Origin: a virus
Length of the DNA: 64,000 bases
Reading direction: 5' to 3' (one strand)
IMG/VR virus record: IMGVR_UViG_3300010885_081999
Location: 39,726 to 103,725 of that record
The first letter of the stretch is position 1; every line of letters starts with the position of its first letter. Shown one piece after another: positions 1,946 to 60,434 of the stretch. The position numbers and the translations under genes are program-made. The notes under the pieces are model-generated. The model was not told the origin of the DNA and did no database searches. It saw only the letters and a list, made by a program, of their open reading frames with translations.

Positions 1946-2835
1946 CTTTGATTTGCCTTTCTAGTTGTGTATTCCAATAGTAGCATGTCTTTATCAATTG
2001 AACAACGTGACTGTTTACGCACGTTGTCAACTGCAGGAATGAATTCTAAGTTAGAAATGTCACCAATGACTTCTGGTGGCAGGCCTTGCCTAAAGCCTTC
2101 GGCAACAGAGAACTTGTGATCTAGGTGATACTCACCTCGCTTATCGTGGTTGTCGAGTTGATCTATCGGTTGCATACGAGTGAAATGATCAACTCTTCTT
2201 CTATAGTCCTGAAATTCAGGTAGATCATCGACGTACTGTTGCCAAGTTTTTCCATGCGTCTTGAGCAGCTTCTTGTCCATAGAAGAAGAGATAAACGCTG
2301 GCGATAAGACGATGTTGTGCACTCCAAACTTTTCGACACAAGTTTCTTCTGCTCGAGATCGTAGAATAGGAGATTCGAAAGTCGATGGGCCACCCCATCT
2401 ATCAGTCATCGTTTGGCGCCGCCGGGCAAGCACTTCGGGATTTTCAATCGGAGACTTATAGCCGTATCTCTTCAAATTTGTCTCTTCGATCTTGGCCCTA
2501 AACTCTTCCGTCTGAGAGTAAACATCGACTCCATAACGCTCGCGAGTAGTCTTCTTCGACTTCTCTTTGGTTGAGTCAAGCTCAAATGTGCTAGCAACAC
2601 CATACTTTCTAATGTTGTTATTTTTGCGTTTTTCTTTTATCTCATCGCAAGACATTGGAAAGTCTGTCCCGTGCTTCTCTAAACTCTTCTTTCGACGAAG
2701 CTCGTATGTGATACCGCCTTTCTTCTGGGCAAGGTAGATGCACTCTTTCGAGCAAAAGAAGAAGCCAGATTTGTTGCTAAGCGGATTCTTTGGCACGAAT
2801 ATCGTCTTGCACTGCGAGCAGATTTTCTCTTTCAT
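1942..2835 (-). CDS. HNH endonuclease with Zn-finger and tandem YG repeats (putative homing endonuclease)
   Basis: About 297 residues. An N-terminal CxxC...CxxxC zinc finger (C6, C9, C28, C32) is followed by about five spaced repeats of the form (K/R)YG(V/Y)xxxxxxxE(I/F)xxK, and the C-terminus carries an HNH-like core (HLDHKFSVAEGF ... NLEFIP ... N). The region is visibly more AT-rich than its neighbours, suggesting recent transfer. The ATG at 2835 follows GAGAGGA; a TTG six bases upstream is rejected. It shares its zinc-finger/repeat module with the endonuclease at 26772-27701, which has a different nuclease domain. Confidence 0.8.
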   Translation of the reverse strand: MKEKICSQCKTIFVPKNPLSNKSGFFFCSKECIYLAQKKGGITYELRRKKSLEKHGTDFPMSCDEIKEKRKNNNIRKYGVASTFELDSTKEKSKKTTRERYGVDVYSQTEEFRAKIEETNLKRYGYKSPIENPEVLARRRQTMTDRWGGPSTFESPILRSRAEETCVEKFGVHNIVLSPAFISSSMDKKLLKTHGKTWQQYVDDLPEFQDYRRRVDHFTRMQPIDQLDNHDKRGEYHLDHKFSVAEGFRQGLPPEVIGDISNLEFIPAVDNVRKQSRCSIDKDMLLLEYTTRKANQR

Positions 2836-2956
2836 CGCCAATCCTCTCTCGAATGATCTCGGCGACGAATTGACTCATCAGTAATCCATGTTGAGCACAA
2901 TACACCTTCAGCGCTTTGTGAGTCTCTTCGTCCACCGAGATCTTCGATTGTTTCAT
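2777..2956 (-). CDS. Small ribbon-helix-helix (CopG/Arc-like) DNA-binding protein
   Basis: 59 residues. The sequence ISVDEETHKALKVYCAQHG and the following helix (LLMSQFVAEIIRERI) match the beta-helix-helix pattern of RHH repressors. It overlaps the 5' end of the HNH endonuclease gene by 59 nt in another frame. The palindrome AAGTAC-TAAA-GTACTT lies 18 nt upstream of its ATG, a natural candidate for its own operator. It may control the endonuclease or itself (inference). Confidence 0.65.
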   Translation of the reverse strand: MKQSKISVDEETHKALKVYCAQHGLLMSQFVAEIIRERIGDERENLLAVQDDIRAKESA

Positions 2957-2962
2957 GGCTAT

Positions 2963-2968
2963 ACGTAT
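2963..2968 (-). promoter_or_regulatory. -10-like hexamer ATACGT, 6 nt before the RHH start
   Basis: ATACGT ends exactly 6 nt before the ATG at 2956 and no Shine-Dalgarno is visible. It fits the leaderless-type spacing seen at other unit-leading genes. Confidence 0.35.
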
Positions 2969-2974
2969 CTAAGC

Positions 2975-2990
2975 AAGTACTAAAGTACTT
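2975..2990. promoter_or_regulatory. Palindromic operator-like site upstream of the RHH gene
   Basis: Perfect inverted repeat AAGTAC-TAAA-GTACTT, extending imperfectly to about 26 bp. It lies between the ThyX-like stop (2993) and the RHH start (2956). RHH repressors typically bind such short dyads. Confidence 0.45.
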
Positions 2991-2992
2991 AG

Positions 2993-3976
2993 TTACTTAC
3001 CTACCTTCCAATCGTTGTGCTGCCTCTTGATGGCATTCCAGTCTGTCATGTCTGCGTTCCACAGCTCGGTGAATCGCTTCTGTGGTCCGTTGCCGTGGGT
3101 GCCGTTGATGTCCTCGCGGGTCGACTGATAGATCGTGTCCTGTGGATGGAACTCGAACGTGTCGTTCTTCGGGATGGGCCAGTAGAGGTTCGTGCCTCGC
3201 GACACGAACTTGTCACCTTCCTTGACGCGGAAGGTCTTGATGTAGTGCATGTCGGGCTTGTTGAAGTCGATCACGGACGTGAACTCGGGGATCACCTTCG
3301 CCACCTCGACTGCCATGCGAGACGCGAGGAGGTTGTCGGCAGCCGGCTGGATCTGGGTGTCCATTCGCTGGTAGATGAAGCCGATGAGCTCCTTGAGTGG
3401 GAGGCGCATGTAGTAGAACGACGTCATGCACTTCGGGAGGATGAGTCGGGCATCCATCATCGACACGACCTTCGAATCCGTCATGTCGGCATAGAGCTGC
3501 TTCGAGTCCTCGACGAGCTTCTTCCATCGAGCGTGGAACTCAGGAGAGTTCTGGACGGGCTCGGGAATCACAGCGTCGTCGTCTCGGAGGTCACGGTCGC
3601 CCGTGCACTGGGCGGCGAAGGTGCCGGCACGATGGCGGATGATGTGTGTCACCTCCTGAAACGAGAGGCCGCTGAGACGGAAAGTGAAGCCGAGGCACTC
3701 CATGGGAGCGGGAAGCGTGCGGCCGCCGAACACGTCCTCGAGGTTCTTCGACAGCTCACGCTGGGTGACGCCGCTGGTGGGATCGATGTCCGGGCGGTCT
3801 GCCCACGTCGCCTTGACGTAGTGCCACGCGACGTTCCAGGCCTGCTGACGCGTGGGAGCGTCGACTAGCTCCACCTTGAGGGCATCGAGGTTGTTGTGGA
3901 ACTGGGTCTTCGGTTCTTGACCGAACTTGAGGACCATGGGAAGCTCAATGGGTTGAAGATCACGATTGATGGGCAT
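2993..3976 (-). CDS. Divergent ThyX-family protein
   Basis: 327 residues, longer than the canonical ThyX at 16989-17675. The fold is suggested by IIRHRAGTFAAQ (R114-H115-R116) and by a C-terminal segment with LKELIGFIYQR and MAVEVAKVIPEF, which is ThyX-like. However, the signature RHR-xx-S-x-N-xx-S-x-R is not kept: the serine and asparagine positions are Thr/Phe and Ala. It may act on another pyrimidine nucleotide, for example as a hydroxymethylase, or be non-catalytic (inference). The start is set by GAGGTAAG before the ATG. Confidence 0.65.
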   Translation of the reverse strand: MPINRDLQPIELPMVLKFGQEPKTQFHNNLDALKVELVDAPTRQQAWNVAWHYVKATWADRPDIDPTSGVTQRELSKNLEDVFGGRTLPAPMECLGFTFRLSGLSFQEVTHIIRHRAGTFAAQCTGDRDLRDDDAVIPEPVQNSPEFHARWKKLVEDSKQLYADMTDSKVVSMMDARLILPKCMTSFYYMRLPLKELIGFIYQRMDTQIQPAADNLLASRMAVEVAKVIPEFTSVIDFNKPDMHYIKTFRVKEGDKFVSRGTNLYWPIPKNDTFEFHPQDTIYQSTREDINGTHGNGPQKRFTELWNADMTDWNAIKRQHNDWKVGK

Positions 3977-48280: not shown

Positions 48281-51200
48281 TCACTGTACCTGCGTGAGGT
48301 TGTTGGCAACGACGAAGTCAAGCGAGACGAACTCGATGCTCTTCGTGGGCTGCACGTAGATCTTGCCACGGATCGTGTTGTTGAGGATGTCGTCCTGGGT
48401 CGTCGTCGAGGAGTCGATGATGACCTTGAACCTCTCGAGGCCGCTGAGGGCCTGGATCCTCTGCAGGCGGGGTGTGACCGCCGAGGAGAAGCGTGCGAGG
48501 GTCGCCTCACGGTTGGGCTCGAAGAGGATCGTCTGCGCGATGTCGCGGACCTGACGACGGATGTCGATGAGGAGACGACGCACGTTGACGCGGTCGAGGG
48601 CCGAGGCAGCGAACTGCAGGGTCTTCTGACCCCACACCACGATGCCGCCCTTCGGATTGAGGCCGCCCTTCGCGGCTCCTGGGAACGCCACGATAGGGTT
48701 GATGGAGTTGTCGTACAACTTGTCCATGTCCGTCTGACCCAACCTGACGCGGGGTTCGAGTGCTGCGTCCGGAAGGGCGCCGCGCGTGAAGCCTGCGGGA
48801 GCGAACCAGGGATATCCGACGGAGTCGTTGAGGGCGAGGGCGCCGAGGACGAGGACCGAGGGAGGCACCTGCATGTTGACACCGATCGGATCCCTGTAGA
48901 GGACGTCGGGGAAGTATGCCGCCGCGAACGAGGAGTCGACCGACCTGTTGACGAAGTAGTCGACCGTGTTGATGACGGACGGCAGCTGGCTGTCGGAGAT
49001 GATTGCATCGCCGTTCTCGTCCTGCTGCTCGATGTCCATGATGTAGAGCGCGTCGAACCTCTCCTGCACTGCGAGGGTCGCAGCGTCCGTGACGATGGGC
49101 TCTCTGATGCCGGGGATCGCGAGGATCTGTATGTCGAGGTTGACGACGTTCTTCATGATGTCGAGGGCCTTGAGGTACGTCCTCACGTTGGGTCCCTCCT
49201 CGGGCTTCGAGGCGCGTGCCGCAGCAGGATCCATGTCGTACATCACGGCGTTGTTGTTGATCTCCGTCTCGTTCCTGTCGAAGATGTTGACGCCGTCCTG
49301 TCCGCCCTGCATGATGAGGGTGAACTTGGCGAACTGCTTGTTGGTGGGGATGTCCTCGACCTTGAAGCCGCGGACCTTGTTCTCGTCTCCCTTGCCGTCG
49401 GTCGCAATCTGATCGAGGTTAGTCGATCCGACCGCTCCGTTCCTGACGTACACGGCCTTCGACCACTTCGTGGGGCTCGCGAGGCCGTTGCTGCCAGTGA
49501 CGACCTGGATGTTCTCGAGGGAGAAGAAGTTGTTGCAGAACCTGTCCGCGTCGAGGATGCCGAGGTCGGCCGAGTCGGGCTGTCCTGCGTTGCTTCCCGT
49601 GAGGAACGAGGCATCACTGATCGAGAAGTTGGGGAACGCGAGGGCGAAGGACTTGATCGAGGCGTTGGGAAGTATGCTTCCGTTCTTCCTGATGAGGTTC
49701 TCCGGGTGCTCGAACTGGACGCCCCAGTAGAACTTGGACTCCGTCTGCTCCTTGACCGACCACTCGTCGGCAGACGTGATCTTACGCCTGAACGGCAGCG
49801 GAGGGGTCTGTGCCTTCTTCGCCGTGTCCGTGACCGCGAGGAGGCCGTTGTCGTCGATTCCGAACTCCTGCATGGGAGCAGAGCCGCTCGTGACGAGGTG
49901 GTCGATGCCGCGGAAGCCCATGGGCAGTGCGACGGGATCGACGAATCCGTTCTCGATGTCGGGGTGGACCTCGACGCGGATGTAGTTGGAGCGGTTCTCG
50001 TAGTTGCCCTCCACGACGATCTTCTGTGAGGATTCCTCACGGTCGAAGTCGAAGTAGGCATGGACGTCGCCGATCACCTTCGCGATGTAGCGGTCGGAAG
50101 AAGGATCGAGGTTTACGCCTGCGAAGACCTCGTTGGGGAGGTTCTTCTTGTCGAGGTCCCTGTCGCCGAACTCGCGGAGAGAGACAGTAAAGGAGCCGTA
50201 CTTGTTGAGAGGATCGTTGGAGACCGTGACGTTCTCGACGGACACCTTGAACTTCGAGGAGATGCCTGCGCCGTCGTCGAGCGCGTGGATTCTGAAGAGG
50301 TCCTGCGGCTTTCCGCCGAACTTCTGTGAGACTATCCACGGAGACACTGCGTGGCTGAACCTGTCCTCGAAGGACTCGTAATCGGGAACCGTCGTGCTCG
50401 ACTCGTTGCGTCCGAGGGACGACGTGACGATGAAGGCGCTGGGCTCGAGACCGCCGTTCGAGTCGGCCGAGTAGGCGTCGTCGACGAGGCCCGATCCTGT
50501 GATGACGGCGAGCGTCGGGTGGACGTCCCAGTTCGCGTAGAGGAAGTGTCCTGCCTCCTGGAGCTTATAGGGGTCCGTGTTGAACGACTTCGCGAAGTAG
50601 TTGTTTGCCGTCGGGTCGAACGACGCCGTGAGGACCCTGGGGTACCTCGCGTCGGAGCCGAGGTGACCGTTGAGGAACATCGTGAACTCCTGACGGGGCT
50701 CGTTGTTGTTCTTCAGCACGACCGTTCCCAAGGCAGCGCCCTTCGCGTCTGCGTCCGTTCCCACCGTGGTCGCGGTGGGTGCCTCGCCGCCGTCGGCGAT
50801 GAAGGTCGAGGAGAGACGAAGCACGACGCCAGACGGTGCCATCAGCACGCCTCTGATTATGGGAAGGGCCGCGGCGCCGCCGGAGGCGCCGCCTGGTCCC
50901 TGAAGACCTGCCTCACTGAAGAAGGTGGATCCTGCCGACTCGGACATGAAGCATCCGAGGAAGTAGGTGCGTCCGAGGTCGGGTCCGAGGTAAGTATCGT
51001 CCACACCGCCGCTGAAGTCCGAAGACACGATCTCTGTGATGGAACCCGACGGGAAAGTGAGCGATCCGTTGGGGAGAGCTCCGTTGTCCTGCATCGAGAT
51101 GGTGACCACACCTGCTCCGTTGTTGCCGCCGTTGATCAGCGCACCGAGACCATAGAGTGGTGTGATACCGGCAAAGATCTTGTCTGCGAGCTTCTTTCCT

Positions 51201-51811
51201 GTGGTGACGCCGCCGCCGACCGGGATGGTCGACTGGAAGACGCCGGGCGAGGGATTCGTCACCACCGGAGCGTGGCTTCCCGTCATCGATTCGTCGAGGA
51301 CGAACTTCACGGTCTGGCTCGCAGGGGTGAGGAACGAGAAGTAACGACCGTTCTCTCCACCGCCCGGAGTATACGGCGAGCAGGTGAAGGTAGCTGAGGC
51401 TGCAGCTCCTAGCAACAGATAGGGATCAGGATTCGCGTGTGGATTGTCGGTGAGCACTCCGTTGGTACCGGGCTGACGCTCTCCGACGACGAATCCTGCT
51501 GACGTCACCTTGCCCGTGACAGTATCGCGGGCACGGCCGTCGCCGGCTCCGAGGACGCGGAGATAGGCCACGGAGCGGGCGCTCCGCAGCCACTCTACCA
51601 CGGCCAAGGGGCCGAACTTCTTGCCGTCTGTGGTGCCGAACTTGGAATACCAGTCAGACAGAGTTCCAACAGTGATGGGGACGAATGCGGGGCCCTTGAT
51701 TGAGGTGCCGATGATGCCCGCGGGGATGCCCACGGGCTGCTGCGTGATCGGACCTGAGATGTCGATCTCCCTCGATGTGACGCCTGCGCTACCGAATTTC
51801 AGTTGTGCCAT
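48281..51811 (-). CDS. Tail sheath protein, paralogue A
   Basis: 1176 residues, far longer than T4 gp18 (659). The N-terminus (TSREIDISGPITQ, then a PVGIPAGIIG.S.KGPAFVP segment) and the C-terminus (YPWFAPAGFTRG, GIVVWGQKTLQF, DRVNVRRLLIDIRR) are typical sheath segments; the middle holds large insertions. It shares both ends with the neighbouring sheath gene. Contracts during infection. ATAGTTA lies 21 nt upstream with GGGAG. Confidence 0.9.
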   Translation of the reverse strand: MAQLKFGSAGVTSREIDISGPITQQPVGIPAGIIGTSIKGPAFVPITVGTLSDWYSKFGTTDGKKFGPLAVVEWLRSARSVAYLRVLGAGDGRARDTVTGKVTSAGFVVGERQPGTNGVLTDNPHANPDPYLLLGAAASATFTCSPYTPGGGENGRYFSFLTPASQTVKFVLDESMTGSHAPVVTNPSPGVFQSTIPVGGGVTTGKKLADKIFAGITPLYGLGALINGGNNGAGVVTISMQDNGALPNGSLTFPSGSITEIVSSDFSGGVDDTYLGPDLGRTYFLGCFMSESAGSTFFSEAGLQGPGGASGGAAALPIIRGVLMAPSGVVLRLSSTFIADGGEAPTATTVGTDADAKGAALGTVVLKNNNEPRQEFTMFLNGHLGSDARYPRVLTASFDPTANNYFAKSFNTDPYKLQEAGHFLYANWDVHPTLAVITGSGLVDDAYSADSNGGLEPSAFIVTSSLGRNESSTTVPDYESFEDRFSHAVSPWIVSQKFGGKPQDLFRIHALDDGAGISSKFKVSVENVTVSNDPLNKYGSFTVSLREFGDRDLDKKNLPNEVFAGVNLDPSSDRYIAKVIGDVHAYFDFDREESSQKIVVEGNYENRSNYIRVEVHPDIENGFVDPVALPMGFRGIDHLVTSGSAPMQEFGIDDNGLLAVTDTAKKAQTPPLPFRRKITSADEWSVKEQTESKFYWGVQFEHPENLIRKNGSILPNASIKSFALAFPNFSISDASFLTGSNAGQPDSADLGILDADRFCNNFFSLENIQVVTGSNGLASPTKWSKAVYVRNGAVGSTNLDQIATDGKGDENKVRGFKVEDIPTNKQFAKFTLIMQGGQDGVNIFDRNETEINNNAVMYDMDPAAARASKPEEGPNVRTYLKALDIMKNVVNLDIQILAIPGIREPIVTDAATLAVQERFDALYIMDIEQQDENGDAIISDSQLPSVINTVDYFVNRSVDSSFAAAYFPDVLYRDPIGVNMQVPPSVLVLGALALNDSVGYPWFAPAGFTRGALPDAALEPRVRLGQTDMDKLYDNSINPIVAFPGAAKGGLNPKGGIVVWGQKTLQFAASALDRVNVRRLLIDIRRQVRDIAQTILFEPNREATLARFSSAVTPRLQRIQALSGLERFKVIIDSSTTTQDDILNNTIRGKIYVQPTKSIEFVSLDFVVANNLTQVQ

Positions 51812-51832
51812 TTCTCTGCTCCCAATTATTGC

Positions 51833-51839
51833 TAACTAT
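51833..51839 (-). promoter_or_regulatory. ATAGTTA late-promoter-like motif of sheath A
   Basis: Minus-strand GGCATAGTTAGCA, 21 nt before the ATG at 51811. Confidence 0.55.
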
Positions 51840-51856
51840 GCCTTTGAACCTGATTT

Positions 51857-54800
51857 TCAGACGAACTGCACGCCACTATTTGTGATGATGAAGTCGATGG
51901 CGATGTACTCAATAACTCTCGTTGGGACCACGACGATGCGGCCGTTCAACTTGTTGAGGTCGACGTCCTCCTGAGTGTTGTTCGACTCGTTCATGACGAC
52001 CTGGAAGGCCTCGATTCCTGCCTGGGCCTGGATGAGACCGAGCTGGAACGATGCGTCCGCCACGAACTTGTTGCGTACTGCAGGGGTGTTCTGCTCGAAC
52101 ACGATCCTCTGCGCGATTCCGATGATGATACGCTTCACCTCGAGGAGGAGGCGACGCACGTTGACGCGGTCGAGGGCCGACTTGTTGATCTGCAGGGTCT
52201 TCTGACCGTAGATCACGTAGCCGAGTCTCGGGAACGTCGCGATCGGGTTGATGCGTGATTCGTACAGCCTGTCCCTGTCCGAGACGTTGAGTCTCACCGC
52301 GACGTTCGTCACGAAGTCCAGTGCCGCGCGGTTGAAGCCTGCAGGAGCGAACCACGGGTACGACACGCGATCGTTGAATCCGAGGGCGCTCATTGCGGCG
52401 ACTGATGCGGGAACCTTCACCTTGCGGCGATTCGTCGCGTCGTCGATGAAGATCTCGGGGTAGTACACTGCGGCGTAGTTGTTGTCGATCGTGCGACTGT
52501 CGAACTGTGCCGTCGTGTAGTTGACGTTGGGCTTCGCGGTGGAGTCGTCGTACAGACGGTTTCCTTCGTCGTCATAGGACGGGATGTCCATCACGTACAT
52601 CGCGAGGCCGTAGTCCCTCACCTTCTTCATCGTCTGATCGGTGATGTAGGGCTCCTTGATGCCCGGGATTGTGAGGATGTTGTTGTTCGCCTCGAGAGGG
52701 TTCGTCATGATGTCGACCGCCGTGAGGTACGACGCGACGCCGTTGTTGTCGACGTCCTGGCCCGACGGATTTCCGTTGACGGGGAATCCCGGGATGTCGT
52801 TGTTGGACGAAGCTCCGCCGCCCGCGTCGAAGGACACCGACTTGTCGTTGAGGCGGCGCGCGTCCCTGTTGAGGAAGTTGGTGCCATCGAATCCTCCGTA
52901 CATGAAGTTCGTGAACTTCGCGTATGCGGAGAACCTGTTGAACTGCGACGCAGTTCCCGACGAGATGAGGGTGCCGAACGTGAGACGCTTGCGACCGTTC
53001 TCCGACCACGTGTAGTCAGTGGAGTCAAGCTTCGCGTTTCTCACGTATGCTGCCTCTCTCATGTGAGTGTTCACCGAGCTGGTGAGATGAGAGAAGGCAG
53101 TGTTGTAGAAGGCCACCTTCGCGAGGCTGAACTTGTTGTCGTGCAGCTTGTCGGCAGAAGATCCCGTGACGAGGGCATCGAGCTTCTCGATTCCCACGAA
53201 CTTAGTGAGAGACTCGAGGAGCATATTTTTCTCGCTCGTCACGTTGGGGTTGAGGACGTTGTTGGAGTCGGGATCCGAAGAGACGCTGTCTCTCTCGAAC
53301 TTCACACCCCAGTAGAATGCAGGATTCGCCTGTTCGGCAGCACCTGGTTCTCCCACGAATGCGGAGGACTTCGTCTCGCCTCTCGTCGCCTTGAAGCGGT
53401 GAGGTATGGGCGGGAGGAACGATCCGGAGAGGCCGAGACCCGCAGGGGCGGCGACGACGCCGAGGCGGGCGATTCCTGCGTCGAGGACTTCGTCAACTTT
53501 AAGGTTCGGATTGACGTTGAGGACCTCGGGACCGTGGAAGCCGAAGGGAAGCACGTTCGGAGGAACGATTCCGTTCTCGACCGCCTCGTTCATGACGACC
53601 CTGACGTACTTCGAGTTGTTGGGATAGTTGCCCGTGGCCACGAGACGCTTCTCCGAGGGATTGAGCGTGTCGAAGTTGTAGAACAGCTTCCTGTTTCCGA
53701 TCAGCTTCGCGATGTAGTTGCTCGACTTGGGATCGAGGCTGCAGTTGGAGAACTGCTCGATCACCTTCGGGCTCGCGTCGGTGTCGGTCCAGTCACGGAT
53801 CTGAACGTTGAACGTTCCGTACTTGTTCGCGTCGTTGGTGGACGCCTTGATGTTGCTGATAGAGATCTTGTAGAGGCTGTTCGCGTACTCTCCGTCGTCG
53901 ATCGCCTCGAACTTGAAGAGGTCGTATTCAGTCGTGCCGAAGGGCTGCGAGATGAAGAACGACGTCTGCGGCGCCTTGAAGCGGGTGTTGTAGGAACCGT
54001 ACACCTCTCGGAAGAACATACCTGTGTCGCCGTTCACCGCTGTGTTGGAGGATCCGGAGAGTACACCGACCGCCATCGAGGACGAGACGTAAGCGACGTT
54101 GGCGTCGACGGCATAGTCCGCATGGAGGTAGTGCTGCTCCTGATAGAACTTGTCCGGGTCCGTGTTGAGGATCTTGCCGAAGTAGTCCTTGCTTGAGGGA
54201 TCGAGCGACGCGGTGAGCACGCGTACTCCGTCGACGCCGTCGGTCTTGTAGAACGAAGAACCGAGGGACGAAGAGATGATGATCTTGAACTTGCCGTCGC
54301 CGTCGACGACCGTCGTGTCCTTGCGAGCATCATGGCCATACGTGACCTTTGCGGACGACGTCAGGACCATGAGACGTGCAGTGTCAGGAGTCATCACGAG
54401 GCCGCGAACGAGGTTGACGTAATCGGAGCCTCCCACGGTGTCGTTGTCCTCGAAGGAGGGGGCGCCAGTTATTCCCTTGGCAGTCTTGAAGTGGGTGGCA
54501 GCGATGAACTGAACCACGCCTGGGTTCCTCTTGTCGAGGACTCCGGCGTTAGTACCCGAGAGCTTGAAGCCTGCGTTCTTCACGATTCCATAAGTTGTCG
54601 TGGCCGTGAGGTCGACGTCTGAAGAGTTCGCACCTGCACCGAGGACCCTCATGTAGGTCAGGGCCGCGCGGTGCTTCAGGAACTCGTTGACTGCATAGGG
54701 TCCAAACTGCTTCGTGTCGAGGTTGCCGAACGTCTGCACGAAATCATTGAATTTCGCGACAGTGACGGGAACGAAGGCAGGACCCTTGTTGGAAGTACCG

Positions 54801-54901
54801 ATCACAGCCGCTGGGACGCCCACAGGGCCTTGGACTGACGGAGCGGAAAGGTCTATCTCGCGCTCATAGAAGTTGGGCGACTTAAATGTCTGCTCGGGCA
54901 T
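51857..54901 (-). CDS. Tail sheath protein, paralogue B
   Basis: 1014 residues. The N-terminus (YEREIDLSAPSVQGPVGVPA, IGTSNKGPAFVP) and C-terminus (YPWFAPAGFNRAALDFV, VIYGQKTLQINKSALDRVN) align with sheath A. The middle differs, with only scattered similarity (e.g. KYGTFNVQIRD versus KYGSFTVSLRE). AAGGAGA precedes the ATG and ATAGTTA lies 33 nt upstream, so each sheath has its own promoter motif. Confidence 0.9.
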   Translation of the reverse strand: MPEQTFKSPNFYEREIDLSAPSVQGPVGVPAAVIGTSNKGPAFVPVTVAKFNDFVQTFGNLDTKQFGPYAVNEFLKHRAALTYMRVLGAGANSSDVDLTATTTYGIVKNAGFKLSGTNAGVLDKRNPGVVQFIAATHFKTAKGITGAPSFEDNDTVGGSDYVNLVRGLVMTPDTARLMVLTSSAKVTYGHDARKDTTVVDGDGKFKIIISSSLGSSFYKTDGVDGVRVLTASLDPSSKDYFGKILNTDPDKFYQEQHYLHADYAVDANVAYVSSSMAVGVLSGSSNTAVNGDTGMFFREVYGSYNTRFKAPQTSFFISQPFGTTEYDLFKFEAIDDGEYANSLYKISISNIKASTNDANKYGTFNVQIRDWTDTDASPKVIEQFSNCSLDPKSSNYIAKLIGNRKLFYNFDTLNPSEKRLVATGNYPNNSKYVRVVMNEAVENGIVPPNVLPFGFHGPEVLNVNPNLKVDEVLDAGIARLGVVAAPAGLGLSGSFLPPIPHRFKATRGETKSSAFVGEPGAAEQANPAFYWGVKFERDSVSSDPDSNNVLNPNVTSEKNMLLESLTKFVGIEKLDALVTGSSADKLHDNKFSLAKVAFYNTAFSHLTSSVNTHMREAAYVRNAKLDSTDYTWSENGRKRLTFGTLISSGTASQFNRFSAYAKFTNFMYGGFDGTNFLNRDARRLNDKSVSFDAGGGASSNNDIPGFPVNGNPSGQDVDNNGVASYLTAVDIMTNPLEANNNILTIPGIKEPYITDQTMKKVRDYGLAMYVMDIPSYDDEGNRLYDDSTAKPNVNYTTAQFDSRTIDNNYAAVYYPEIFIDDATNRRKVKVPASVAAMSALGFNDRVSYPWFAPAGFNRAALDFVTNVAVRLNVSDRDRLYESRINPIATFPRLGYVIYGQKTLQINKSALDRVNVRRLLLEVKRIIIGIAQRIVFEQNTPAVRNKFVADASFQLGLIQAQAGIEAFQVVMNESNNTQEDVDLNKLNGRIVVVPTRVIEYIAIDFIITNSGVQFV

Positions 54902-58834: not shown

Positions 58835-58863
58835 TTTTTCTCCTTTGACCGTTACGAGATGAG

Positions 58864-58936
58864 TGGACTCGGACGGGATCGAACCGACGACATCCGCCTT
58901 GCAAAGGCGGCGCTCTCCCAGCTGAGCTACGAGCCC
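58864..58936 (-). tRNA. tRNA-Ala (anticodon TGC)
   Basis: Full cloverleaf by eye: acceptor GGGCTCG/CGAGTCC with the G3-U70 pair that specifies alanine, D-arm AGCTCAGCTGGGAGAGC, anticodon loop TTTGCAA, T-loop TTCGATC, discriminator A. The CCA end is not encoded. Confidence 0.95.
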
Positions 58937-58937
58937 T

Positions 58938-59012
58938 TGGTTGCAGAGGCAGGAATTGAACCTGCGATCTTCTGGGTATGAACCAGACGGGATGCCACTT
59001 CCCCACTCTGCG
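58938..59012 (-). tRNA. tRNA-Met (anticodon CAT), initiator-like
   Basis: Acceptor CGCAGAG against CTCTGCA leaves a C1-A72 mismatch, the mark of bacterial initiator tRNA. Anticodon loop TTCATAC, T-arm GCAGG-TTCAATT-CCTGC, and an encoded CCA end. Only two of the three initiator G-C pairs occur in the anticodon stem, so the initiator call is tentative. Confidence 0.88.
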
Positions 59013-59040
59013 TCAACTTCAGTATCATACACTAGATCTG

Positions 59041-59114
59041 TGGGACGTACACGACTCGAACGTGTGACCTCAACTTTATCAGAGTTGCTATCTAACCAAC
59101 TGATATAACGTCCC
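59041..59114 (-). tRNA. tRNA-Ile (anticodon GAT)
   Basis: Acceptor GGGACGT/ACGTCCC, D-arm TATC...GATA, anticodon stem CAACT/AGTTG with loop CTGATAA, T-arm ACACG-TTCGAGT-CGTGT, discriminator A. CCA not encoded. Confidence 0.93.
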
Positions 59115-59193
59115 GACTTTCCTTCTTGCCTTCAGACACTGAGAGGTGGTGAGACTTGATCTAACTGAATCAAGTAGGAAACTCACTCTTAGG

Positions 59194-59566
59194 TGGAGGT
59201 GCCGGGAATCGAACCCGGGTCCACCACGACTCTTTCAAACACATCGTCCACAAGCTTGGAATGAGTTTATCGACCTCATCCTCGTCTAGAAAGTTCTCAC
59301 CTATGTGTTCGGGTAGAGGGCTTCCAACCTTCCCTATCCTGGGACCCACCATCCCAGTCGATCCACCCCAAACAACGGGGGTAACTACATTCTTCGGAAC
59401 GATTCTTTTTCTAGGCCGTTCCCGCCCATTCCTCAGGCCGCGAGGGCCATCGGAGCGATGCCGTTGTCGTTGGCGTCTATACGTCATTTGGGTTTTGATC
59501 GGGACCCTCATGCACCCGAGCCTGCTGCGTCTGCCTTCGTCGCGATGTCGAAACCTGATCACCCCC
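59194..59566 (-). ncRNA. ssrA: tmRNA (ssrA), one-piece
   Basis: About 373 nt. The 5' end GGGGGTGATCAGGTTTCGAC and the 3' end (GGGTTCGATTCCC T-arm, then CACCTCC-A) form the alanyl tRNA-like domain with a G3-U70 pair. The tag frame starts after TAGAC with resume codon GCC at 59474-59472 and reads ANDNGIAPMALAA-stop (59433-59474), ending in the ALAA degron-type C-terminus. The CCA is not encoded (CCT in the genome). It rescues stalled ribosomes and tags the nascent chain. No smpB gene is visible here. Confidence 0.95.
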
Positions 59567-59571
59567 GAAGT

Positions 59572-59856
59572 CTACTTCCAAGACTTCTTAGACTTCATCG
59601 ATGCGACTTTCGGTCGCGCCGATCCTGCAATAGCTATGTTCTTCTGAGAGAGCTCTTCAATCCTTTTTGACTCTGACTCTGCCCATACTCCGAACTTCTC
59701 CTTTGAGACCCTCTCGTCTTCCCTCTCGAGAGTATCGAGGATGGGATTCTTGATCTTTATGAGAAGCTTGGACTGATCTTGAGGATCTGGAAGCGGATGA
59801 TTGAGGAGTGTCTCGAGAATGTGAAGGAGTTCCGTGGCCGTCAACGTCACATTCAT
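59572..59856 (-). CDS. Small helical protein, 94 residues
   Basis: ATG overlapping the upstream stop (ATGA), with GAGGAG before it. LTATELLHILETLLNHPL forms an N-terminal helix in the style of the tag family, and DPQDQSKLLIKIKNPILDTL follows; the C-terminal half is charged. It ends 6 nt before the tmRNA 5' end, so tmRNA may be co-transcribed. Unknown function. Confidence 0.65.
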   Translation of the reverse strand: MNVTLTATELLHILETLLNHPLPDPQDQSKLLIKIKNPILDTLEREDERVSKEKFGVWAESESKRIEELSQKNIAIAGSARPKVASMKSKKSWK

Positions 59857-60434
59857 GACTCCTCCTCGTCGGGCGAACCGAAGCCATAGACCGTGTTGGA
59901 GACGATCGTCTGCCAAGACTTTGGGAACTTCCTGACTTCGAACGTGTGACACTCAGCCTCGTCGTACAGCTCGATCGAGGTAGGAGTGAGACGTACCCTG
60001 ACGACTGAATCGATGATCATGGTTCCTTCATCGAGGAGTACATCGACGGAGTTCTCCTCTCCGACGTCCTCGAACTCCAGAGTGACCTTGTCGCCCGAAG
60101 GTGACGTCACTTTGATCGCAGGAAGCTCAGCGAACTCAGCAGGTGGTGCATATAGCTGCACCTCGGGAAGATCCTCTTCTTCCTCGTCACTCTCGTCTTC
60201 TTCGTCTTCCTGGTCCTCTTCGTCCTCCTCCGACGTGTCGTCGTACGGCTCATCCGAGGAGACAGTTTCCACGTCATCTTCAGACTCGTCATCTTCGGCA
60301 GACAAGAGGAAGTCGGACATGTCGTCCAGAATGTCTTCGAGGTGCTCTGTCACGCTTTCGCTCATCTTCTGCGTCGAAGCACAGTGGAACAAGACACCGT
60401 AAAGGAACAGTGCATCAGGCTTGGTAAGTTTCAT
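59853..60434 (-). CDS. Highly acidic protein, 193 residues
   Basis: ATG at 60434 after GGGAGG. It begins MKLTKPDALFLYGVLFH, then a helix, then about 45 residues that are mostly Asp/Glu/Ser (residues about 47-92), then a beta-rich C-terminal domain. Such acidic stretches occur in DNA-mimic and chaperone-like proteins; function here is unknown. A hairpin separates it from the upstream gene. Confidence 0.7.
   Translation of the reverse strand: MKLTKPDALFLYGVLFHCASTQKMSESVTEHLEDILDDMSDFLLSAEDDESEDDVETVSSDEPYDDTSEEDEEDQEDEEDESDEEEEDLPEVQLYAPPAEFAELPAIKVTSPSGDKVTLEFEDVGEENSVDVLLDEGTMIIDSVVRVRLTPTSIELYDEAECHTFEVRKFPKSWQTIVSNTVYGFGSPDEEES

Follow-up and report, generated by a model that had tools for sequence, protein, structure and literature searches.

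A one-piece tmRNA gene in a T4-like phage record and two forms of the tRNA-like domain among its viral relatives

INTRODUCTION

Genes for tmRNA were found in 402 of 18,146 phage genomes, or roughly 2% (PMC9004378), and a 2025 database holds a curated set of 79 unique bacteriophage tmRNAs (PMC11915505). Complete tmRNAs are described from cultured tailed phages, including Bacillus phage G, the mycobacteriophages Bxz1 and Wildcat, and Stenotrophomonas phages (PMC4131195, PMC9004378), and huge metagenomic phages carry tmRNA alongside tRNA genes (PMC7162821). Both ribosome recycling and the tagging of truncated host proteins have already been proposed as roles for phage tmRNA (PMC9004378). The original prediction for the locus studied here offered these two roles and called tmRNA rare in phages; the rarity holds for the fraction of genomes, but the class is well documented, huge phages included.

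Here, we analyzed a 64,000-nucleotide stretch of viral DNA (the window), which is bases 39,726-103,725 of a 103,725-base IMG/VR record. The record has one tmRNA gene, and it is one more well-supported case of the known phage class. Like the one-piece bacterial tmRNA (RF00023, ssrA), it matches the family model over its full length and has a tRNA-like domain with G3-U70, P2, PK1, and a tag that ends in ALAA and a stop codon. Unlike the bacterial RNA, it carries a 13-residue tag, ANDNGIAPMALAA, that was not found in cells at the patterns used, it has a covarying accessory hairpin before the 3' strand of P2, its CCA is not encoded, and no smpB was found in the record. It resembles the tmRNAs of cultured phages in being complete and in belonging to a tailed phage, but alignments to cultured-phage records cover at most 16% of it, and the matches seen are short and confined to the tRNA-like domain or tag region. 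As in the huge phages, a metagenomic phage here combines tmRNA with tRNA genes (PMC7162821). Several of its one-piece relatives share D-loop AG and T-loop GGCRGUA with the two-piece tmRNA of Alphaproteobacteria and their phages (RF01849/RF04321; phages Melnitz and RcRudolph), whereas the RNAs of the window and its clade come in one piece, and the window has the canonical loops GG and UUCGAUU.

RESULTS

The record comes from a T4-like phage

The record encodes two tandem sheath-like proteins, a tail tube, a baseplate hub, and a head-tail adaptor, as well as a UvsX-like recombinase, a DnaB-like helicase, a DNA polymerase segment, and a single-strand binding protein. Ribonucleotide reductase and ThyX are also encoded. 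These tail, replication, and recombination genes identify a T4-like, contractile-tailed phage, so the tmRNA is indeed phage-encoded as first proposed. The tail sheath gene at 51857-54901 on the minus strand (phrog_23, E 1.5e-52) marks the record as that of a contractile-tailed phage. The phage is uncultured and probably large. Records with a related adaptor reach sizes of up to 187-309 kb, and the 103,725-base record is therefore probably partial.

The head-tail adaptor or neck protein, P0001 (56905-58083, minus strand; phrog_211, E 3.1e-10), served as our lineage marker. A 418-residue neighbor protein has no match in cultured phages. Three other regions of the window can be noted. A tandem pair of tail-sheath-like genes, of 1176 and 1014 residues and both matching phrog_23, occupies 48281-54901. 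A 334-residue protein at 23904-24908 matches the actin-like family Volactin (PF25216, E 8.8e-64), here in a T4-like phage. A 401-residue frame at 30276-31481 matches a phage DNA polymerase only in part (phrog_17, profile positions 968-1195), and the polymerase may be split or interrupted there.

The tmRNA gene is complete and one-piece

ARAGORN called a minus-strand tmRNA at 59192-59566, with the coding part at gene positions 93-134 and the tag ANDNGIAPMALAA followed by a stop. The Rfam model RF00023 matched end to end (model positions 1-374 of 374) with 88 bits and E 8.6e-33, against a gathering score of 47. We place the gene at 59191-59566, with the mature 5' end at 59566 and the discriminator A73 at 59194, where the original prediction had set its lower end. 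The two strands of the P1 acceptor stem are GGGGGUG (59560-59566), which includes G3 of the G3-U70 pair, and CACCUCC (59195-59201). The 3' end reads CACCUCC-A-CCU; bases 59193-59191 are C-C-U, and CCA is thus not encoded. The T-arm, CCGGG-UUCGAUU-CCCGG (59202-59218), has a canonical T-loop and is accompanied by the D-loop GGUUUCGAC at 59547-59555. The gene has an alanyl tRNA-like domain, with G3-U70, the discriminator A, a T-arm, and no D-stem.

PK1 (59490-59519), with a stem UCGGG/CCCGA and an interleaved GGGU/ACCC, lies 5' of the tag reading frame (59433-59474). The codons of this frame are GCC AAC GAC AAC GGC AUC GCU CCG AUG GCC CUC GCG GCC UGA, and it ends in a hydrophobic degron and a stop. 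The accessory hairpin GGAUGAG-GUCGAUAAA-CUCAUUC occupies 59259-59281; RF00023 treats it as an unpaired insert. A two-piece, permuted tmRNA (RF04321/RF01849), in which the 3' part of the tRNA-like domain precedes the 5' part and the transcript is cut in two, does not fit. The order here is linear (5' tRNA-like domain, tag, and 3' tRNA-like domain), and RF00023 was the only model reported.

Three tRNA genes adjoin the tmRNA on the same strand, as was originally noted. ARAGORN and the Rfam search both found tRNA-Ile (gat) at 59040-59114, downstream of the tmRNA, tRNA-Met (cat) at 58938-59012, and tRNA-Ala (tgc) at 58863-58936. A C1.A72 mismatch is a hallmark of initiator tRNA; the phage tRNA-Met has this mismatch, while the full GGG/CCC anticodon stem is absent. 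On the other side, an open reading frame at 59572-59952 ends 5 bases upstream of the tmRNA 5' end, an arrangement that would fit processing out of a longer transcript. A consensus scan for promoters and terminators gave none beyond chance.

Compensatory changes support the RNA structure

The window tmRNA was aligned with ten related sequences of its own tmRNA type (11 distinct sequences in all) and scored over 70 named pairs, pseudoknots included. Of the cells, 91.9% were paired against a shuffled mean of 74.2%, and two-sided changes were seen in 38 of the 70 pairs against 25.2 in the shuffles; any observed value was reached by 0 of 500 shuffles, although related sequences can beat shuffles without structure. 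When partners were slid by 1-3 columns, pairing fell to only 35-46%, a control that is somewhat flattering because the structure was derived from the window and its kin. The drop is so large that it leaves little doubt that the structure is real.

P1, P2, PK1, the T-arm, and further helices are backed by compensatory changes, as expected from the proposed tRNA-like domain and pseudoknots, and G3-U70, which the original prediction had pointed out in the acceptor stem, is invariant in all 11 sequences. P2 was seen as three helices, and both P2 and the two PK1 stems (covariation helices 5 and 6) show two-sided changes. Helices 8-10 are consistent with PK2 and PK3; the PK4 stem was not made out. 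The accessory hairpin, covariation helix 11, has two-sided changes among relatives in 7 of 7 pairs. The covariance model, ARAGORN, and covariation confirm the tmRNA. The earlier interpretation was mostly right, but its statements on rarity and on the tag as a host clue went too far.

The gene probably resides in a phage lineage

A search through P0001 gave 50 related records, many of them short fragments, of which four have a tmRNA above the cut-off. Two of the four longest (187-278 kb) have none, so the lineage can do without the tmRNA. Viral contigs were also scanned separately for the 13-residue tag ANDN..A..A.AA, which gave 56 stretches. RF00023 scored above its cut-off in 44 of 50 viral records searched, 47 of them from the tag scan and three brought in through P0001. 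The aligned set holds 38 distinct one-piece sequences, window included, nearly all of which come from one tag pattern and so carry an ascertainment bias. These 38 show the class to be larger than the curated 79-member phage set (PMC11915505).

P0001 is present at 67-84% identity in 11 of these 50 records, two of which have no tmRNA. In nine records (G000, which is the window's own, G002, G003, G041, G053, G065, G068, G071, and G092), the two genes share a strand and the tmRNA sits about 1-23 kb upstream of P0001. G030 is the sole exception among records with both genes, with its tmRNA placed elsewhere relative to P0001. Position and occurrence thus point to a resident gene of this lineage that has at times been lost or gained.

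A search of 51 records detected no SmpB gene, with a control search positive in 10 of 14 genomes. Presumably, then, host SmpB is used, unlike in some huge phages, which have their own (PMC7162821). The window's record is possibly a fragment, and smpB could therefore lie elsewhere in its genome. The gene for the SspB adaptor was not found in 12 related records.

The tag marks the phages

The consensus tag of the 38 viral tmRNAs is ANDN-[GA]-x-A-P-L-A-L-A-A. Several positions are set by the search pattern, and only positions 5, 6, 8, 9, and 11 are free of this bias. Position 11 is L in 25 sequences and I, Q, K, or H in the other 13. The frame is retained with synonymous variation in this set. 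The same frame occurs in L085 (record G041), which was obtained independently of the tag pattern. In its tag, ANDNGYVPVNLAA, Ala10 is replaced by Asn and the opposite strand of helix P5 has a matching change, which suggests that the tag is constrained by RNA pairing. ALAA is the usual degron end; the window tag keeps it, and most tags of its clade end in LAA.

The middle of the tag had been put forward as a clue to host lineage, which our searches do not bear out. The fixed 13-residue pattern, ANDNG..A..LAA, had no match in 84,980 bacterial and archaeal species genomes, and a looser ANDNG..LAA pattern gave six matches, none called as tmRNA by ARAGORN; these scans cover LAA-ending tags of roughly similar length. 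The exact tag ANDNGIAPMA gave no further record in viral contigs, and many variants occur in related phages. Within the limits of the scans, the tag therefore marks the phage lineage and not a known host, and we dropped host assignment from the tag.

Function and alternative explanations

From sequence comparisons, we consider it very probable that the gene encodes a functional one-piece tmRNA and that it is a resident of a large T4-like phage lineage. Its part would be the ordinary one in trans-translation, played together with AlaRS, SmpB, EF-Tu, and proteases of the host. The tmRNA may share a transcript with the three tRNAs, host RNase P may cut its 5' end, and the host may add CCA; host AlaRS would charge it with alanine and host SmpB would bind it, a phage record without a detected smpB being in line with this. 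It would then enter ribosomes that have stalled on mRNA that is broken or lacks a stop codon. Translation would restart at GCC and ANDNGIAPMALAA would be appended, so that the ribosome is freed and the tagged product is passed to proteases of the host. The phage would probably benefit by sustaining trans-translation after host transcription has ceased and decaying mRNA leaves many ribosomes stalled, supplying tmRNA once the host gene no longer delivers it.

The main effect might instead be a change of tag rather than added rescue capacity: with the phage tag in place of the host's, rescued proteins would be treated differently during infection (by other proteases or adaptors, or stabilized). 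The absence of this tag family from cellular genomes at the patterns used would suit such a change, as would the I, Q, K, or H that 13 of 38 viral tags have at position 11, where the LAA degron has its Leu, and the SspB search that came back empty in the 12 related records. However, the window tag keeps the usual ALAA end, most clade tags end in LAA, and some of the variation tracks RNA pairing rather than peptide function, as in L085, where N10 keeps helix P5; we regard this explanation as unlikely. A role as a decoy that titrates SmpB and inhibits host trans-translation has a precedent in mycobacteriophage DS6A, whose RNA consists of a tRNA-like domain only and has been proposed to be a decoy (PMC4131195), and with no phage SmpB found, phage and host tmRNA would compete for the host protein. 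A decoy would need neither tag frame, stop codon, PK1, nor pseudoknot ring, yet all are conserved, which makes this role very improbable. We give slightly less credence still to a passenger, either a copy of a host tmRNA or an attachment-site relic of an integrating ancestor. Although tmRNA genes are common integration sites (PMC11915505), this gene is full length and not a 3' fragment, its body is phage-specific, with no cultured-phage match covering more than 16%, and it is present in 38 distinct viral sequences, with compensatory changes that already contradict a passenger.

Two forms of the tRNA-like domain

A less expected result than the functional tmRNA itself is loop switching among its kin. 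The 38 distinct sequences take two forms. In the canonical form (26 sequences, window included), the D-loop carries GG and the T-loop is UUCRANU or close to it; in the alphaproteobacterial form (12 sequences), the D-loop carries AG and the T-loop is GGCRGUA or close to it. Both loops are of the same form in 38 of 38, with no mixed cases, and the T-loop played no part in the search pattern. A tree made without the loop regions needs seven label changes, six of them forced by well-supported branches. In all six independent pairs, both loops switch together (sign test p 0.031). The P0001 tree requires at least two changes of loop form. The clearest pair, L112 and L092, has a near-identical tag and pseudoknot region and differing loops at both ends.

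Alphaproteobacteria have a two-piece tmRNA of their own. In cells, the pattern GGAC-N5-GGCRGUA-N9-UCCAC matched 67 of the 96 Alphaproteobacteria, one of 185 genomes from the Xanthomonas class, and none of the 101 Bacillota. The canonical-loop pattern gave three matches in Alphaproteobacteria, none with a paired stem. All four cellular loci of the second T-loop form that we read are permuted and have D-loop AG. Among cultured phages, those of Rhodobacter, Mesorhizobium, Erythrobacter, and Caulobacter, together with Melnitz, account for most occurrences of this T-arm. We looked there for a one-piece RNA with alphaproteobacterial loops; all five loci (Rhodobacter, Mesorhizobium, Erythrobacter, Caulobacter, and a faecal one) were read as permuted by Rfam, with ARAGORN agreeing in four. 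G030, G041, G053, G071, and G092 have a one-piece tmRNA with alphaproteobacterial loops, otherwise seen here with two-piece RNA, and the presence of the adaptor gene shows that they are phages. Canonical loops are found in G002, G003, G065, and G068.

SmpB binding requires the interaction of D-loop and T-loop (PMC3968760), so that loop fit to host SmpB would be a natural explanation. We see about an even chance that these phages have repeatedly switched dialect, keeping body and tag, as a fit to the SmpB or other factors of the current host that bind the tRNA-like domain; the loops would then be a host marker, and a one-piece RNA would work in Alphaproteobacteria. If so, the two forms would be a natural experiment on which parts of the domain must fit the SmpB and the modification enzymes of the host, and the loop sequences could point to the hosts of uncultured phages. 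We found no description of loop switching in PMC4131195, PMC9004378, PMC11915505, PMC3968760, or PMC7162821, a limited reading and thus weak evidence of novelty.

The survey also turned up permuted tmRNAs in cultured phages. In Rhodobacter phage RcRudolph (OP009285.1), an unannotated permuted tmRNA lies at 2728-3142 (L088; RF04321, 103.6 bits; tag ANDNVRMDAQALAA), and the record has the hypothetical protein RCRUDOLPH_61 annotated across it; RcSimone-Hastad (L203) has a similar one. Permuted tmRNAs without an annotated feature were likewise found in Mesorhizobium phage Cp1R7A-A1 (L202; RF04321, 99.3 bits), Erythrobacter phage vB_EliS-L02 (L204; 91.9 bits), and Caulobacter phage CcrBL9 (L205; 73.3 bits). 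Additionally, ARAGORN called permuted tmRNAs in the viral contigs L099 and L125, with the tags ANDNSYAPVAMAA and ANDNHKAPVALAA.
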